DNA from: Dehalococcoidia bacterium
Lineage (GTDB): Bacteria; Chloroflexota; Dehalococcoidia; GIF9; JAUXIO01
Length of the DNA: 42,200 bases
Direction of reading: 5' to 3'
Assembly (NCBI GenBank): GCA_030620975.1
Contig: JAUXIO010000007.1
Coordinates: forward strand, 1 to 42,200
Part shown: piece by piece, positions 448 to 24,286 of the stretch
Layout: each line of letters begins with the position of its first letter
How positions within the stretch are numbered: position 1 is the first letter of the stretch
Program-made: the position numbers and the translations under genes
The notes under the pieces: generated by a model
Told to the model about the DNA's origin: nothing
The model's database searches: none
Seen by the model: only the letters and a program-made list of their open reading frames with translations

Positions 448-1050
448 TCAAATGCCTATGCCTAAAAGGTGCAGCACAGCCCATATTCCAAAATAGCCAG
501 CGTAGGCGAGAGCTATATCTTTTACTGTTTTGCCTGCCCAACAGTTAAGGAAGAATTTCCACAAGTGGAGTTTCATCATAGCCACAGCCACGGTAAGCGG
601 ATAGAAAAGGGGATTGACCACTACCGACATAGCAAACACGCCTAGTGAGCCTTTCCGCTGCACCCAATCTACTATCCGCAAATAGGTGCTGTTATTAATA
701 TCCTTGAAGAAACTTCGGCCTCCGTAACCCAACATATAGATAGATATTGCCCCAACTGCCTCTCCCAACCCAGCTACTACTCCCACCAGAACTGGATACT
801 TCATTACCGCGCCTAAAGTAAATACCACAAGCACACCGGGGACTGGAACTAAAAGTGTACTTCCTGCAAGGACGCTGATGATAAAAAGTCCTAAATAGCC
901 ATACTGCTCAAAACTGCGCACATATTCCCAGTATTGAACGACGAGAATACATAGACAAATAGTGACCGTTAGAGTTAGTCCAATTATCCAATAGTCTTTC
1001 TTCATCCAACTTCTGTTCACCGCCTTTTCTGTCTCCCTAGTAACTGCCAT
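448..1050 (-). CDS. VTT/SNARE-associated (DedA-like) integral membrane protein
   Basis: A 200-aa polytopic membrane protein with about five hydrophobic segments. The first is near residues 22-40, followed by a pair around 52-82 and 86-108 and two C-terminal segments. The stretch GSTLLVPVPGVLVVFTLGAV followed by GEAVGAISIYMLGYGG matches the VTT (SNARE-associated/DedA) fold, whose members are lipid scramblases or transporters. No specific substrate can be inferred. ATG at 1050 lies 3 nt after the clpC stop, so the gene is probably the last of the Nudix-clpC unit. An internal Met at 1005 is an alternative start, because AGGAA directly abuts the ATG at 1050. The stop is 44 nt from the tRNA-Ala gene. 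Confidence 0.8.
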   Translation of the reverse strand: MAVTRETEKAVNRSWMKKDYWIIGLTLTVTICLCILVVQYWEYVRSFEQYGYLGLFIISVLAGSTLLVPVPGVLVVFTLGAVMKYPVLVGVVAGLGEAVGAISIYMLGYGGRSFFKDINNSTYLRIVDWVQRKGSLGVFAMSVVVNPLFYPLTVAVAMMKLHLWKFFLNCWAGKTVKDIALAYAGYFGIWAVLHLLGIGI

Positions 1051-1053
1051 TTC

Positions 1054-3486
1054 CTATGTCTTTGCCTCGACAGCTTTCTTTGCGGTGAAAGTTAAGCCTT
1101 CAGTGTCCGCGCTAACGAATATGATATCACCTTCTTTAAATTCACCTCGTAATATTTTAGCTGACAGGGGATTCTCTATATGGCGCTGGATAGCCCGACG
1201 TAATGGACGAGCTCCATATGTTGGGTCATAACCCTCCTTGATTAACCAGGACTTCGCTTCATCGTCCAACTTCAATTTGATATTACGGTCGGCAAGCCGT
1301 CCCGCAGCTTCACCTATCAATAAATCAACAATGTTCTTCAGATGTTCCCGGGTTAAGGGCTGAAAGATGATGATGTCATCTACCCTGTTGAGGAACTCGG
1401 GGCGAAAGGTTCGCTTTAAAGCGCTCTCTATTGTGCTCTTAATCCGCTTCTGGTCAGTTTTTTCTTGCTGCTGGAAGCCAATAGCCTGACGCTGGAATTC
1501 TTCAGTGCCCAGGTTACTGGTCATTATCACCACTGTATTCTTGAAATCTACAGTTCTGCCGTGTCCGTCGGTAAGCCTGCCGTCTTCAAGTATCTGAAGC
1601 AAAATATTAAACACATCGGGGTGTGCCTTCTCCACCTCATCAAAGAGAATTATCCGATAGGGGCGGCGGCGCACTGCTTCAGTTAGTTGTCCTCCCTCCT
1701 CATATCCTACATACCCCGGCGGGGCTCCGATGAGGCGCGATACGGTATGCTTCTCCATGTATTCTGACATATCTAGCCTTATCATGGCGTTCTCATCATC
1801 AAACAGAAACTGGGCAAGGGCTCGAGCTAATTCTGTCTTGCCCACGCCAGTGGGCCCTAAGAAAATGAAGCTGCCAATGGGACGGTGCGGGTCTTTAAGC
1901 CCGACTCGAGCTCGCCTGATAGCTTCAGATATAGAGGTTACCGCCTCTTCCTGATTCACAATCCTCTTATGAAGGTTTTCCTCCATATGAACTAGTTTCT
2001 CAGTTTCGCCTTCAAGCATCCGCGAAACCGGGACCCCCGTCCATTTGGAGATTAATTCAGCTATATCCTCTTCATCCACCACGCTATCAATTTTCTTCTC
2101 TTGAAGCCATTGAGTTTTCGCCTTATTATAGCTCTCCTGCAAACCCAGCCTCTCGGCCTTCAGTTCAGCTGCCCGCTGGTAATCTCGCCGTTGCGAAGCC
2201 GCCTCCTCTTCGTTAAGCAGGTGCTGCATACGCTGCTCCAAGTTCTTAACATTGGATGGAGCGCCCTCCATATCAATGCGTAGCTTACTGGCCGCTTCAT
2301 CAATGAGATCGATTGCCTTATCGGGCAGAAATCTATCTGAGATATAGCGCTGACTCATCCTGGCAGCAGCTACCAACGCTGAATCGTCAATTTTAATCTT
2401 GTGGTGAGCTTCATATCTGGGACGAAGCCCCCGCAGCATCTCTATGGTTGCTTCAACGCTGGGTTCACCTATAAATACTGGCTGAAGCCGTCGTTCCAGC
2501 GCCTTATCCTTTTCAATGTGTTTCTGATATTCATCAAGCGTAGTTGCCCCAACGCACCGCAGCTCACCTCGAGCCAGCGCTGGCTTCAGTATATTGCTGG
2601 CGTCAATAGCACCTTCAGCGGCTCCAGCACCAACCACGGTATGTATTTCATCGATAAACAGAATGACTTCGCCTTCAGCTTGGCGAATTTCATCGATCAC
2701 CGCCTTTAACCTCTCCTCAAATTCACCTCGAAACTTGCTTCCAGCTACCAAAGAACCCATGTCCAAGGCAACCACTCTTCGCCCTTTCAGAGAATCTGGC
2801 ACATCGCCAACCATGACCTTCTGGGCTAAGCCCTCGGCAATAGCTGTCTTGCCCACACCAGCATCACCAATGATTACCGGATTGTTCTTGGTCCGTCGAG
2901 TCAGTATCTGCATTACACGCTTAATTTCATCCTCACGACCTATTACCGGGTCTAATTTGCCTCGGCGAGCCAATTCGGTGAGGTCACGACCATACTTCTC
3001 CAAAGAGCGATATTTGGTTTCGGCTCCGGGAGTATCAACGCGATGACCACCGCGAATATTTTGAAGGGCTCGGTAAATCTTTTCCTGGTCAACGCCAAAC
3101 TCGCTGAGGATGCTGGCGGCTTCACCTTTACCCTCACCAGCAATGGCAATTAGCAAATGCTCGGTGCCAATGAACTCGTCCTTGAGCCGATCGGCTTCAT
3201 GCGCAGCATTTTCCAAAAGGCGAGCAACTCTGGGGGTGGCATAAATTTGCACTCCCTCATAGGCTACTTTAGGAGCGCTGTCGAGGGTTGACCTCAACTT
3301 CTCCTTCATCACCTCCACATCAACACCCAGCTCGTTTAGTATATCCGAGGTTAAGCCGCCTTCCTGTTCCAATAAAGCTAGCAATACATGCTCTACATCC
3401 CACTGACTGTGACGATAACGCTTGACCAGCTCTTGCGATGTGGCCAGAGCCTCTTGTGCTTTTTCGGTAAATCTTTCTGGCCTCAT
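1054..3486 (-). CDS. clpC: ClpC-type AAA+ unfoldase (HSP100), ClpP partner
   Basis: 810-aa cytosolic protein-unfolding ATPase. The Clp N-domain repeats cover about residues 1-150. The first AAA module has Walker A GDAGVGKT (207-214) and Walker B ILFIDE (276-280 area). A short middle region of about 410-470 contains a UVR-like motif ([13 protein letters not shown]). The second AAA module has Walker A GPTGVGKT (544-551) and Walker B ILFDEVEK. The short middle domain and the IGF tripeptide at about 669-671, the loop that docks on ClpP, point to ClpC rather than the disaggregase ClpB, although many pipelines would call it ClpB/ClpA. ATG at 3486 has GGAGG 7 nt upstream. Immediately upstream is the tail of an HspR-like regulator (3522-3662), and HspR typically controls clp/dnaK genes. 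clpP is not in the window. Confidence 0.93.
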
Positions 3487-3521: not shown

Positions 3522-3662
3522 TTAATTTGGCTCTGCTTCCATTTGTCCAATCTGGCGTTGCATCTCCATCATTCTCTCCGCCATGCGTAACATTACCTTC
3601 ACTCCAGCCAAATTAACTCCCAAATCATCCTCTAAAGTTTTAAAGGGCCTCACTACTAGGCT
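3522..3662 (-). pseudogene. hspR: C-terminal fragment of HspR (MerR-family heat-shock repressor)
   Basis: Between Nudix and clpC a frame is open from 3662 (after a TAG) to a TAA at 3522-3524. From about 3638 it reads KTLEDDLGVNLAGVKVML and then RMAERMMEMQRQ. LGVNLAGVxVIL followed by a Met/Glu/Gln-rich helix is the hallmark C-terminal part of HspR. The N-terminal winged helix-turn-helix is missing, because the upstream part overlaps the intact Nudix gene in another frame. About 45 codons remain, with a possible GTG start at 3653 but no good ribosome site. I read it as the remnant of a dnaJ-hspR-clp locus broken by the Nudix gene. A small expressed coiled-coil peptide is the alternative. Confidence 0.6.
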
Positions 3663-4224
3663 CTAAGAATTCAAGAAGCTGCTTTATAATCCAAGCTGTA
3701 GCTCCCCAGATTACCTGCCCATCATATTCGTAAAAATAAGCGGGGCGAATTTTACCGTTAATAAGTTGATACTCCTGCCTGAACTTGCTCTTTTCCATAA
3801 GCGCCGGGATAGGTATCTGAATTATTTCCTCAACTTCGTCACGATTCCCGACAAAGTGATAAGGGCAAGGTATAAAAGCTACAAAAGGAGAAATGACAAA
3901 GCCAGTGGTAGTAATAGCATCATCCAACTCACCTAAAATTTCTACATCTCTAATCTCGAGCCCTATCTCTTCGCAAGCTTCCCTAAGAGCAGTATCAAGA
4001 AGGCAACGGTCATCTTCCCCACGAACTCCGCCGGGAAAGGAAATCTGATTTTTATGATAGGCTACTTTATCACTCCTCTTGGTAAATAGGATGTTGTATT
4101 CTTCCCGTTTACGAAAGATGGGGATAAGAACTGCCGCCTCAATTAAGTCTCTGCCAACGATCCTTTTCTTCCGATGACTAGATAATTTTTGCCTGAGATG
4201 CTCTTTTATACAAATTACGGCCAT
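3640..4224 (-). CDS. Nudix hydrolase, CoA pyrophosphatase-like (NudL/YeaB group)
   Basis: 194 aa. TKRSDKVAYHKNQISFPGG (about 49-67) matches the UPF0035 signature LLTxRSxxxxxHxGxxxFPGG that precedes the Nudix box in CoA diphosphatases. The box follows as DTALREACEEIGLE, with the metal-binding REACEE core intact. Such enzymes cleave CoA or acyl-CoA to phosphopantetheine and 3',5'-ADP. The ATG at 4224 is preceded by a weak AGATAGAG site. The gene has its own promoter at 4241-4270, divergent from dnaJ. Its 3' end overlaps the hspR remnant in a different frame, and clpC follows 150 nt further on. Nudix boxes alone do not prove the substrate, but the FPGG-side motif makes CoA the best guess. Confidence 0.85.
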   Translation of the reverse strand: MAVICIKEHLRQKLSSHRKKRIVGRDLIEAAVLIPIFRKREEYNILFTKRSDKVAYHKNQISFPGGVRGEDDRCLLDTALREACEEIGLEIRDVEILGELDDAITTTGFVISPFVAFIPCPYHFVGNRDEVEEIIQIPIPALMEKSKFRQEYQLINGKIRPAYFYEYDGQVIWGATAWIIKQLLEFLEPSSEAL

Positions 4225-4240
4225 CTCTATCTACTTAATA

Positions 4241-4270
4241 ATGATATCACCACCCTTATCTCTAAAACAA
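4241..4270 (-). promoter_or_regulatory. Promoter for the Nudix-clpC unit
   Basis: On the minus strand, TTGTTT (4265-4270), an 18-bp spacer and TATCAT (4241-4246), with TGA just upstream of the -10 (extended -10). It lies about 17 nt before the Nudix ATG at 4224. The -35 is weak. Confidence 0.45.
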
Positions 4271-4289
4271 CTCTTTGCCATTTTTTGAT

Positions 4290-4306
4290 AATCGCTATTT
4301 GCGATT
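4290..4306. repeat. Inverted repeat AATCGC-N5-GCGATT between divergent Nudix and dnaJ promoters
   Basis: A perfect 6-bp dyad (4290-4295 and 4301-4306) with spacer TATTT. It abuts the dnaJ -35 (4306-4311) and lies 20 nt upstream of the Nudix -35. The position suits an operator. It matches neither CIRCE nor the HspR HAIR consensus. Confidence 0.45.
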
Positions 4307-4335
4307 TGCAATAAAAGAGAACTATTAGTTATACT
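4306..4335 (+). promoter_or_regulatory. Promoter of dnaJ
   Basis: TTGCAA (4306-4311), an 18-bp spacer and TATACT (4330-4335). The predicted start of transcription near 4342 leaves a leader of only about 10 nt before the ATG at 4353, and that leader has no Shine-Dalgarno. Confidence 0.6.
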
Positions 4336-4352
4336 TAAGGATTGGTGCAACT

Positions 4353-5435
4353 ATGACAATGAGGAGAGATTACTACAAGGTACTGGGAGTACTCAGGAAT
4401 GCCACCGATGAAGAGATCAAGAAGGCATTCCGCAAATTAGCTTTTCAATATCATCCTGACCGCAACGGGCAAAAGGGGGCGGAAGAGAAATTCAAGGAAA
4501 TCAACGAGGCTTACCAAGTTCTCTCCGACCCAGAGAAGCGGACTACTTATGACCGTTATGGTCAAGTGTCCGCCGAGAGCTGGCACGGCTTTGACTTTGG
4601 CGGCCTTGGTGATATCTTCGAATCCTTCTTCGGCGGAGCTGCTACTGCAGGTCAGCGAGTTCCGCGGAAAGGCGCTGACCTGCAAACCAGCCTTGAAATA
4701 TCTTTTGAAGAAGCTTTTTTTGGCTGCGATAAAGAAATTGGGATAAAGCGTACCGAAAACTGCCCCTCATGCCATGGAATTGGTAGTCAGCCGGGAATAA
4801 ATCCACAGAGGTGTCCTAACTGCAACGGTAGCGGGCAGGTGCGAAGAGTTCAGCGTAGCATCTTTGGACGTTTTATTCACGTGGCTACCTGCCCACGCTG
4901 CTCTGGCGAGGGGACAATCATTACCCATCCATGCTCTCAGTGTAAAGGGGCAGGGAGAGAAAGAATAAAGCGCAAGCTAACAGTTAATATCCCCGCTGGA
5001 GTAGATGAGGGTTATGAGTTATGCCTCAGTGGCGGGGGGGAAGTCGGCACACACGGTGGTCTATCAGGCGACCTTTACATTACTCTCTCAGTAACACCCC
5101 ACAAGTTTCTCAAAAGGGAAGGGGTCAATATCCTCTGCGAACTACCCATTAATTTTGCTCAAGCAGCTCTTGGAGACGAAGTAGAAGTGCCCACTTTAGA
5201 TGGTAAAGTAACTGTAAGAATACCACCGGCCATTGAGAGTGGGACAGTGCTTTGGCTTAAGGGTAGGGGGGCGCCTCATCTTAATAGCAGAAAATGTGGA
5301 GACCAACTAATCACAGTGCGGGTGGTAACGCCACGGTCTCTGAATGAAAAACAGCGGCGGCTCTTCACAGAATTAGCTGAAACTTTACCCAGAGCTAGAC
5401 AAGCCAGTGAAGAAGTTGAGGAAGTAGTAACCTAA
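4353..5435 (+). CDS. dnaJ: Chaperone DnaJ (HSP40, type I)
   Basis: 360-aa co-chaperone that stimulates the DnaK ATPase and delivers substrates. The J domain (6-70) carries HPD at 34-36. A Gly/Phe-rich linker (79-100) follows. Four CxxCxGxG zinc repeats start at residues 137, 154, 180 and 194, and then come the two C-terminal substrate-binding domains, ending in a short Glu-rich tail. The gene stands alone on the plus strand, separate from hrcA-grpE-dnaK at 20.7-24.3 kb, and next to an hspR remnant and clpC. This suggests that it descends from an HspR-controlled dnaJ locus. No CIRCE lies upstream. ATG 4353 is chosen, with ATG 4359 ([10 protein letters not shown]) as the alternative. The transcript appears to be near-leaderless. 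Confidence 0.96.
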
Positions 5436-20711: not shown

Positions 20712-22598
20712 CTACACCTCTCTAAATTCTCCCTCTACAGTCCCCCCTTCTCCCTTATCACCGGGAGCCTCGCCAGATGGAGGCGGTGTCCCCGCTGCTT
20801 GTTGATAAACACTAGCTCCAACTTTCTGCATAACCTCCGACAGTTCCTGCATAGTACTGCGAATGCGAGCTATATCTTGCCCTTGAAGTGCAGAACGCAC
20901 AGCAGCGACCTTTCCTTCTACCTCCTGCTTCAGATCGCCGGCTATCTTATCTCCCTGCTCACGAAGTGTTTTTTCTGCGGTATAGGCCAACGCATCGGCA
21001 GTATTGCGAATTTCCACTTCCTCTTTTCTCTTGGCATCTTCAGCAGCATGGGCTTCAGCTTCACGCGTCATCCTCTCCACTTCCTCTTTGCTGAGGCCAC
21101 TGGAGGCGGTAATAGTGATTTTTTGCTCCTTACCCGTGCCCTTATCCTGAGCGCTAACATTCAGAATGCCATTGGCATCAATATCAAAGGTTACCTCAAT
21201 CTGAGGCATGCCCCGCGGTGCCGGTAAGATGCCATCGAGCATAAAGCGTCCCAGCGTTCTATTATCAGCTGCCATGGGACGCTCGCCCTGAAGCACATGA
21301 ATTTCCACAGTGGGCTGACTATCAGCAGCCGTGCTGAAAATCTGGCTTTTTGAGGTAGGGATGGTAGTATTGCGCTGAATAAGTGAGGTGGCTACTCCAC
21401 CCAGGGTTTCTATGCCCAGAGTAAGCGGTGTGACATCAAGGAGTAGAACTTCCTTCACATCACCCCTAAGCACACCAGCCTGAATGGCAGCGCCCAAAGC
21501 CACTGCCTCATCGGGGTTAACTCCTTTTACTGGCTCTCGGCCAAAAATTTGCCTAACCATTTCCTGAACTTTAGGCATTCTCGTCTGACCACCAACTAAA
21601 ATCACCTCATCAACTTGAGCTGGAGTGAGACCAGCATCGGCTAAAGCTTGCTGGCAAGGGACCATAGTCTTCTCTAACAGATCAATTGATAGCTGCTCCA
21701 GCTTGGCGCGGGTGAGTGTAATATTGAGGTGCTTGGGCCCAGCGGCATCGGCGGTAATGAAGGGAAGGCTTATCTCAGTTTGAGGCACTGTGGATAATTC
21801 CCTCTTTGCTTTTTCGGCAGCATCCTTCAACCGCTGTAGTGCCATTCTATCCTGCTTCAGGTCAATGCCAGTTTCCTTCTTGAACTCATCACACAGCCAA
21901 TCCATAATTCTCTGGTCAATGTCATCGCCTCCAAGGTGGGTGTCACCGTTGGTCGATTTAACCTGAAAGGTGCCCTCGCCAATCTCTAAGATGGAAATAT
22001 CAAAAGTGCCACCGCCAAGGTCATAGACGGCAATGGTTCCCTCTTTTTTCTTACCCATTCCATAAGCCAGGGAGGAGGCCGTCGGTTCATTGATTATGCG
22101 CAGTACATTCAATCCGGCAATGGTACCAGCATCCTTGGTTGCTTGGCGCTGACTGTCATTGAAATGAGCCGGTACGGTGATTACAGCATCGGTGACCTTA
22201 TCCCCTAAGTAAGCTTCGGCATCGGCCTTCAGCTTTTGCAGAATCATAGCCGAAATTTCCGACGGGCTATACTCTTTGCCTCCCATCACCACCTTGGCAT
22301 CACCATTGGATGCTTCAACTATCTTGTAAGGTAACCGTTTTATATCATACTCAACTGGAGATTCCCTATACTTACGTCCCATAAGGCGCTTTATGCTGAA
22401 AATGGTATTCTCGGGATTAACTATCGCCTGGCGTCCCGCCAGAGTCCCCACCAATCGCTCGCCGCTTTTACTAATAGCTACCACCGAAGGAACAAGCCTT
22501 TCCCCTTCGGAACTGGAGATGATTGCTGGCTCACCCCCCTCCATCACCGCCACCTCGCTGAGAGTGGTCCCCAAATCAATGCCTACTGCTCTGCCCAT
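20712..22598 (-). CDS. dnaK: Chaperone DnaK (HSP70)
   Basis: 628-aa ATP-dependent chaperone. The nucleotide-binding domain has GIDLGTT (6-12), [14 protein letters not shown] and [13 protein letters not shown]. The substrate-binding domain has [17 protein letters not shown]. The helical lid is followed by a Gly-rich end, [13 protein letters not shown]. The ATG is preceded by AGGAGG at 9 nt. Third gene of hrcA-grpE-dnaK, 32 nt after grpE, and thus under CIRCE/HrcA control. dnaJ does not follow as it does in many Gram-positives; it is 15 kb away. Confidence 0.98.
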
Positions 22599-22630: not shown

Positions 22631-23212
22631 TTACTTTGCAGCTTCGTCTTCCTTCCCTGGTTGTTCTGCCTCAGCTTCTTTCTCCCCTTTTCTCTTGCCC
22701 ACCACCACCAGGCTGGGGCGAATTACCCGGTTTTTGAACTTATATCCCTTCTGAACTTCATCAATAACTATCCCCTCCTCCCCCTCTCCATACATTACCG
22801 CTTCGTGGAGTGCGGGATCAAAGGGCTGCCCTTTAGCTTCAATCTCACTCAAGCCCTGTGCTTCCAAAATTGCCTGAAATTTGCGATGAATGAGTCGGAC
22901 GCCATCAACCCAGGTAAGTCCCATCAACTGCCGAGGCACCGAAACAAAAGCTCGTTCCAAATCATCCAGAATCGTTAATAAATCGCGCACAAACATGGCA
23001 TTGGCAAAGTCAGTTACCCCACTTTTTTCCTGCTCAGCACGCCTCTTATAATTGGTAAAATCAGCCTGGGCTCTTTGCCAATTAGCCAAGTACTCTTCTG
23101 CCCTCGCCTTTTCATCAGCTAGAGTTTGCCTTAATGTCTCAATATCCTCCGCCGTTTCCTCGGTCTCAACTCTCTCAGATGGCTGATCGTCAGATAGGTT
23201 TTTTTCTTCCAA
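22631..23212 (-). CDS. grpE: Nucleotide exchange factor GrpE
   Basis: 193 aa. An acidic N-terminus is followed by a long dimerisation coiled coil (about 25-85, [32 protein letters not shown]) and the C-terminal beta domain ([39 protein letters not shown]), all family hallmarks. GrpE releases ADP from DnaK. I chose TTG 23212 because a perfect AGGAGG (23220-23225) lies 7 nt upstream. An in-frame ATG at 23248 would overlap hrcA and has no such site. It lies between hrcA and dnaK. Confidence 0.95.
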
Positions 23213-23235
23213 TATCAAACCTCCTCTTTCAGCAG

Positions 23236-24258
23236 CTAACCACCGCAATGCACCTTGGCCACCAAATTACTCAACGCCCCCGACAAGTAACGGACCATGG
23301 GAACAACTCGAACATAGTCCATTCGAGTGGGACCAATTACTCCAACAGCACCACCAATTTCATTGGGAATGCCGTATTGACTAAAAACCAAGCTCAAATC
23401 TCGCAACATCACACCCTGGCTCTCTTCGCCAATAATTACCTTCACCCTGCCCTCGCTGAGCCTGCAGAGTACGCTTTCAAGCCAACTCTTTCCTTCCATC
23501 ATCTCCATAATGCCCAGCAGCCTATCACTTCTGATAAACTCGGGTTGACTCAGCATGAGGCGCAGCCCCTCAAAGCAAGGCTCATCGTATTCCAGTTTGC
23601 TTTCCGCCATCATCACGTTCGCTACAGCTTCAGCCACCTGCTCTCCCTTTGGGGAAAGTCGTGGTTTCTGGGCCAAAATCTCAGAACTAGTAAGTCCAGC
23701 ACAGATAGCATTAAGTCTACTGGCAATCGCGGTTAGTTCCTCCTGGGTAGCTGACTCACTAAAGTACAAAAACTGCTGTTTGAGTTTTGCCTCGGACAGC
23801 ACTAAAACCATTAAGATTAGGAATTCATGCACTGCTATCAATTCAAGGTGTTTAAACCGACACCGTGCTGCTTTGGGTGGAGTAACCACCGCAATATTCC
23901 TAACTAAACGCGCCAGAAGTTTTGCCGCCAGCTTCACACATTCCTCAAATTCCCTATCTACTGCCCTAAATAGACTATCCACAAGCTGCTGCTCAGCTAG
24001 CGGGGGTTCAATATCTTCAGTCATTGATTCCACATAATACCGGTAACCTTTGTCTGTAGGTATGCCACCAGCCGAGGCATGAGGTCGGTTAATATATCCT
24101 TCCTCCTCAAGCCGCGCCATATCGTTACGAATGGTAGCTGGACTTACTCCCAGCTTGTAATTTCGAGCAATAATTTCTGAAGCTACTGGCACCGCTTTGG
24201 CAATGTACTCACTAACTATTAACTTTAGAACTGCCCCTTTTCTCAATGCGTCCGTCAT
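23236..24258 (-). CDS. hrcA: Heat-inducible transcription repressor HrcA
   Basis: 340 aa. An N-terminal winged helix (to about 75) carries VSPATIRNDMARLEEEGYI and RPHASAGGIPTDKGYRYYV, and GAF-like and inserted domains follow. HrcA represses dnaK and groE operons through CIRCE, and its activity depends on GroEL. The operator lies at 24260-24286 directly before the ATG, giving autoregulation. The Shine-Dalgarno GAGGGGAG falls in the CIRCE spacer, so bound HrcA or the RNA hairpin would mask it. First gene of hrcA-grpE-dnaK. groES/groEL are not in the window. Confidence 0.97.
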   Translation of the reverse strand: MTDALRKGAVLKLIVSEYIAKAVPVASEIIARNYKLGVSPATIRNDMARLEEEGYINRPHASAGGIPTDKGYRYYVESMTEDIEPPLAEQQLVDSLFRAVDREFEECVKLAAKLLARLVRNIAVVTPPKAARCRFKHLELIAVHEFLILMVLVLSEAKLKQQFLYFSESATQEELTAIASRLNAICAGLTSSEILAQKPRLSPKGEQVAEAVANVMMAESKLEYDEPCFEGLRLMLSQPEFIRSDRLLGIMEMMEGKSWLESVLCRLSEGRVKVIIGEESQGVMLRDLSLVFSQYGIPNEIGGAVGVIGPTRMDYVRVVPMVRYLSGALSNLVAKVHCGG

Positions 24259-24259
24259 T

Positions 24260-24286
24260 TTAGCACTCTCCCCTCGAGACTGCTAA
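24260..24286 (-). promoter_or_regulatory. CIRCE operator of the hrcA-grpE-dnaK operon
   Basis: On the plus strand TTAGCACTC (24260-24268), nine spacer bases (24269-24277) and GACTGCTAA (24278-24286). This is the CIRCE consensus TTAGCACTC-N9-GAGTGCTAA with one mismatch, located 1 nt from the hrcA ATG and at the expected transcription start. The spacer, read on the minus strand, contains the SD-like GAGGGGA. Confidence 0.93.

Follow-up and report, generated by a model that had tools for sequence, protein, structure and literature searches.

A probable deletion remnant of hspR ahead of a clp chaperone gene in a Dehalococcoidia bacterium

In Helicobacter pylori, the gene for the heat-shock repressor HspR is part of a cbpA-hspR operon (PMC7074700), and in this bacterium as in Campylobacter jejuni HspR is found together with an HrcA/CIRCE regulon (PMC7464140). 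In mycobacteria, DnaK binds HspR at its C-terminal end (PMC10415612). CbpM, a modulator of CbpA that is encoded beside cbpA, resembles MerR proteins (PMC7074700). The locus described here carries only part of an hspR gene. It lies in a stretch of 42,200 nucleotides (hereafter the window) from an assembly of 1.02 Mb in 71 contigs that is 94.65% complete. Stretches of 4-12 kb around hspR from relatives were compared with the window. The features of the locus are as follows:

448..1050, minus strand: DedA-like membrane protein gene, a conserved neighbour downstream of clp
1054..3486, minus strand: gene for a clp AAA+ chaperone of 810 aa, immediately following the remnant (ClpB model score 1184 bits, cut-off 1232)
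3522..3653, minus strand: open frame with the putative remnant, 43 codons (43 aa), GTG start, open from 3662
3531..3644, minus strand: hspR-derived remnant (FKTLEDDLGVNLAGV...QMEAE), second half of the winged helix and most of the dimerisation helix
3641..3646, no strand: apparent deletion junction, nudix 3' end (..GAGGCCCT) joined to hspR (TTTAAAACTTTA), from comparison with 12 relatives
3640..4224, minus strand: complete nudix hydrolase gene, its stop codon now inside the hspR remnant, its 3' end matching the relatives' ends
4241..4246, minus strand: candidate -10 hexamer TATCAT of a nudix promoter, found by eye and not reported by the consensus scanner
4353..5435, plus strand: dnaJ (TIGR02349), divergent, in its ancestral position and not the dnaJ of the hspR operon

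The translation of the short frame (3522-3653, minus strand), MRPFKTLEDDLGVNLAGVKVMLRMAERMMEMQRQIGQMEAEPN, matches the NCBIfam HspR model NF047375 at positions 50-89 of 92 (E 3.4e-6, 27 bits), and the C-terminal half of Pfam MerR_2 (positions 50-83, E 7e-5). With 27 bits against 105 it stays under the whole-protein cut-off of NF047375 and is not a full-length member of the family; this cut-off is strict, being exceeded in 1 of the 84 genomes of the order. With an HspR HMM made from relatives the score is 52 bits (E 1e-16) over positions 57-103 of 117, and across 40 aa the peptide shares 60-68% identity with the second half of the relatives' HspR, with E down to 6.5e-13. The nearest intact HspR proteins are 63-68% identical over 40 residues, within frames of 109-119 residues. 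On these scores the homology with HspR can be taken as real and far beyond chance. It spans about 3644 to 3531; the frame opens with VVRP, which is not HspR: its GTG start and first codons come from nudix DNA in another reading frame.

The fragment retains the second half of the winged helix and the dimerisation helix (DLGxNLAGV...). Pfam finds no N-terminal MerR helix-turn-helix (PF13411/PF00376) in the 43-aa frame; the HspR of an intact relative matches both families, with E values of 7e-19 and 2e-11. A sequence-only reading of the window had seen here an HspR tail without its DNA-binding half ahead of clpC, and this description is borne out. The other end of the gene is altered too. The frame ends EPN*: after the conserved M-E-x-E come two unrelated codons and then the stop, 35 bases ahead of clp, and the relatives' HspR extends 15-25 aa beyond M-E-x-E. 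To judge by this comparison, the 3' end of hspR has been lost as well. A frame-shifted continuation of the HspR C-terminus in the window was considered and found no support from the HMM. Two near-invariant HspR sites are changed in the fragment, M to E and E to K. Since the DNA-binding half and the C-terminal end are both gone, the fragment is without both functional ends.

The relatives have the gene order der-plsY-gpsA-dnaJ(divergent)-nudix-(hsp20)-dnaJ2(cbpA-like)-hspR-clp-dedA, hsp20 being present in some; it is alike in families f2, f3 and f4, with small variations. Near-full-length HspR matches (E 1e-22 or better) occur in 61 of the 84 genomes of the order, and nearly all sampled loci are syntenic. 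A six-frame search with the 43-aa peptide gave matches in 62 of the 84, the window's own included. The dnaJ2 of the relatives has a J domain and DnaJ_C with a zinc-finger match that is merely weak and partial, and is for this reason called cbpA-like. When the window is aligned with relatives that carry dnaJ-hspR-clp, it shows their gene order minus dnaJ2 and the first half of hspR. It had been suggested that a dnaJ-hspR-clp locus was disrupted and that an intact Nudix gene had replaced the helix-turn-helix half. The disruption stands; the divergent dnaJ, taken at the time for the dnaJ of the hspR operon, holds its own ancestral place, and the nudix gene has replaced nothing, as it sits in its ancestral place in the relatives. 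The relatives' HspR is full length and does not share the short N-terminal boundary seen in the window.

Several other differences exist between loci. Many f2 and f4 genomes have an hsp20-like frame, assigned by sequence, in antisense orientation between nudix and dnaJ2 (L145 at 4250-4990; also L149, L150, L156, L158 and L160), which is broken in some; no HSP20 match is found anywhere in the window's genome. Between hspR and clp, a small conserved frame of 91-106 aa (AKWQITATTIRCELVDDFVTIMVNKDW...) is seen in f3 and f4 (L143 5330-5760, L145 6250-6640; also L146 and L156) and is absent from f2 and the window. In genome G023 (L162 5555-6263), two divergent HspR-like genes adjoin clp, one of them with an internal stop.

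At the junction, the last nudix codons GGCCCT are joined to the hspR codons TTTAAAACTTTA. Base by base, the window reads AGTAGTGAGGCCCT|TTAAAACTTTA, to be compared with the relatives' nudix ends (GAGAGCGGGGCCCTGCAATAG) and hspR codons (ATTAAAACTTTGATG). The last codons of the window's nudix gene are AGT AGT GAG GCC CTT TAA, and those of an example relative GAG AGC GGG GCC CTG CAA TAG; the hspR continuation of the window is TTT AAA ACT TTA GAG GAT GAT TTG GGA GTT AAT, and the matching codons of the relatives are ATT AAA ACT TTG ATG TGC GAC TTG GGG ATT AAT. This comparison of nudix and hspR codons places the break at 3641-3646, with an ambiguity of a few bases at most. The missing stretch, measured on 12 relatives, is 1347-1854 bp. 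It would appear that dnaJ2 and the 5' half of hspR were removed in one deletion whose junction can still be read.

The short frame is thus very probably what a deletion left of hspR in a nudix-dnaJ2-hspR-clp ancestor, nudix having been fused to mid-hspR, and is best read as a recent pseudogene. From the ancestral order nudix, cbpA-like dnaJ2, hspR, clp, a deletion of ~1.3-1.9 kb would have fused the end of nudix to the middle of hspR, taking with it dnaJ2, the dnaJ2 promoter with the likely operator region, and the DNA-binding half of HspR. Because the repressor and the repressed promoter would have been lost together, clpC would not have been left permanently shut off. Presumably clpC is now read through from the nudix promoter, without heat control by HspR, and HrcA/CIRCE would control the remaining main chaperone operons.

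The candidate -10 hexamer of the nudix promoter has TATGAT or TATAAT at its position in the relatives, and no terminator- or promoter-like sites were found on the minus strand from nudix to clp. Ahead of dnaJ2, the relatives carry a TTGACA...TATAAT-like promoter, e.g. CTTGACATTGTTAAAAAAGCCATTTATAATATGG (by eye), in the region that is deleted in the window. The window has no site within 2 mismatches of the HAIR consensus CTTGAGT-N7-ACTCAAG, an actinobacterial consensus that may not be that of this lineage; it is absent from the locus in the relatives too, where weak matches lie mostly inside coding regions. A motif, TGAGCYCCACTC, occurs near the start of the hsp20-like frame and again, inverted, at the nudix end, and is a candidate operator or a repeat. 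It is common to the hsp20/dnaJ2 promoters in the nudix-dnaJ2 interval (L145, L146, L150, L151, L153, L156, L158 and L160); in the window's genome it has three 1-mismatch matches against two for the reversed control, which is not above control.

No second HspR is present in the assembly. A genome-wide search for an intact hspR, proposed in the sequence-only reading, found none in the 94.65% complete assembly, where the HspR model matches the fragment alone, and no MerR_1 protein scores above cut-off there. Three further DnaJ-domain genes exist in the genome, none at the locus: two resemble dnaJ2 or dnaJ at 32-39%, and one encodes a short J-domain protein. HrcA/CIRCE is indeed the only visible repressor system, as had been proposed, with CIRCE at hrcA, groESL and a zinc-ribbon gene. 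Its components in the window are:

20712-22598: dnaK, in the hrcA-grpE-dnaK operon, named from sequence
22631-23248: grpE, following hrcA, likewise named
23236..24258, minus strand: hrcA (Pfam), first gene of the surviving heat-shock repressor operon, then grpE and dnaK
24260..24286, minus strand: CIRCE element, 1 mismatch, one base ahead of hrcA

The two further CIRCE sites lie ahead of groESL and of the zinc-ribbon gene; a reversed control pattern gave none. The latter site is a perfect CIRCE at 2355-2381 of L216 (contig C60 of the same genome), upstream of a small Zn_ribbon_8/FmdB-like gene at 2023-2298. This gene is possibly a relative, under HrcA control, of the chaperone Ruc, which is redox-regulated (PMC7448276).

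A remnant should decay, and the remaining core does not detectably do so. The 36-residue core, from the lysine onward, ranks 14 of 36 by profile score (z -0.4). On a fixed species tree that includes one genome of the window's family, the window tip takes a share of 0.14 of the total tree length for the core, just slightly more than the 0.07-0.12 for clp, dnaJ, gpsA, plsY and nudix. The window tail had come out as the most diverged of 36 HspR tails by leave-one-out profile score; this was an effect of the nudix-derived residues, the core itself being normal. The lack of decay means, for this one genome, that the deletion is recent or that the fragment is still constrained or active.

The second of these options would make the fragment a functional mini-protein, an HspR dimerisation helix whose translation is coupled to nudix and which pairs with a chaperone or another MerR-like protein. 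Its frame is intact over 43 codons, the core is as conserved as in intact HspR, the overlap with the nudix stop makes translational coupling possible, and CbpM offers a parallel. We nevertheless hold it to be unlikely. The fragment has no C-terminal end, the part to which DnaK binds in mycobacteria; the assembly offers it no other HspR, dnaJ2 or above-cutoff MerR_1 protein to partner with; and no strong ribosome-binding site precedes the GTG. Moreover, among the matches listed from 393 genomes of the class, the window's is the only tail-only frame that is not at a contig end: the short frames followed up among these matches (G025 C63, G144 C9 and G122 C260) are all cut by contig ends. With such cases set aside, no independent short ORF is seen in relatives, either in the 84 genomes of the order or among the matches listed from the 393. 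The short ORF, which the sequence-only reading had considered as a possible independent gene, is carried by no relative and, on this evidence, should not count as a conserved small gene. A quite improbable extension of the same idea is that a new small protein, coupled to nudix, arose from the deletion, its HspR dimerisation helix being kept because it binds a chaperone or a subunit of Clp instead of DNA.

It is likewise quite improbable that the organism has an intact nudix-dnaJ2-hspR-clp operon of which about 1.5 kb is skipped in the MAG contig. The assembly is a draft in 71 contigs, but a skipped piece would often turn up elsewhere, and no other contig carries a dnaJ2 orthologue or the missing first half of hspR. 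The gene's 3' end is altered too, and a clean break within two coding regions, with no repeats, is atypical of a misassembly. Parallel losses in related genera also argue against an artefact. Of the order's 84 genomes, 23, among them the window's own, have no strong HspR match, some of these genomes being incomplete; in 8 of the 23, from genera g2, g3 and g8, a contig spans the locus, and clp adjoins dnaJ, in some cases with nudix as well, without dnaJ2 or hspR in the interval. The dnaJ2-hspR module is thus lost, and clp retained, in at least three f2 genera (g2, g3 and g8). A sensitive HMM search found no hspR remnants in the nudix-clp gaps of hspR-less genomes (g2, g3, g5 and g8). If family f1 lies outside f2, as taxonomy places it, the module has been lost more than once; the support for the position of f1 in the tree is just 53. 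In two genomes of genus g2 (L207 3425-3538 and L208 3771-3890), nudix is reduced to its last 40 residues, which adjoin clp.

That the tail belongs to an ancestral regulator family without helix-turn-helix, conserved in the lineage, has nothing in its favour beyond the single occurrence and is hardly credible: near-full-length, mostly syntenic HspR prevails in the order, the first codons of the ORF can be recognised as nudix DNA, and the junction refutes such a family.

Deletion from hspR thus remains the preferred reading. The feature is genuine but ordinary, a gene loss in a small genome and not a new system. Its value is that of a readable case, in which a repressor and the promoter region that it probably controls were apparently lost in one step and clp was left intact, and it suggests that one heat-shock gene is no longer under its repressor. 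The losses in g2, g3 and g8, with clp kept, suggest that these Dehalococcoidia-like bacteria with small genomes can do without HspR control of clp and need no more than HrcA.

Compared with the HspR family (NF047375), the window fragment covers family positions 50-89 and sits beside clp, but it has no recognition helix-turn-helix and no C-terminal end, and alone it cannot be a DNA-binding repressor. CbpM is a likeness as a MerR-like protein encoded beside cbpA; its MerR similarity, however, is N-terminal, the part missing in the fragment, and cbpA is absent from the window. As in the cbpA-hspR operon of H. pylori (PMC7074700), the relatives have a cbpA-like dnaJ directly before hspR, whereas the window has neither the cbpA-like gene nor the first half of hspR any more, and clp follows. 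Finally, set against the HrcA/CIRCE regulon with HspR of C. jejuni and H. pylori (PMC7464140), the relatives encode HspR, and the window's genome keeps the HrcA half only, with CIRCE at hrcA-grpE-dnaK and groESL.
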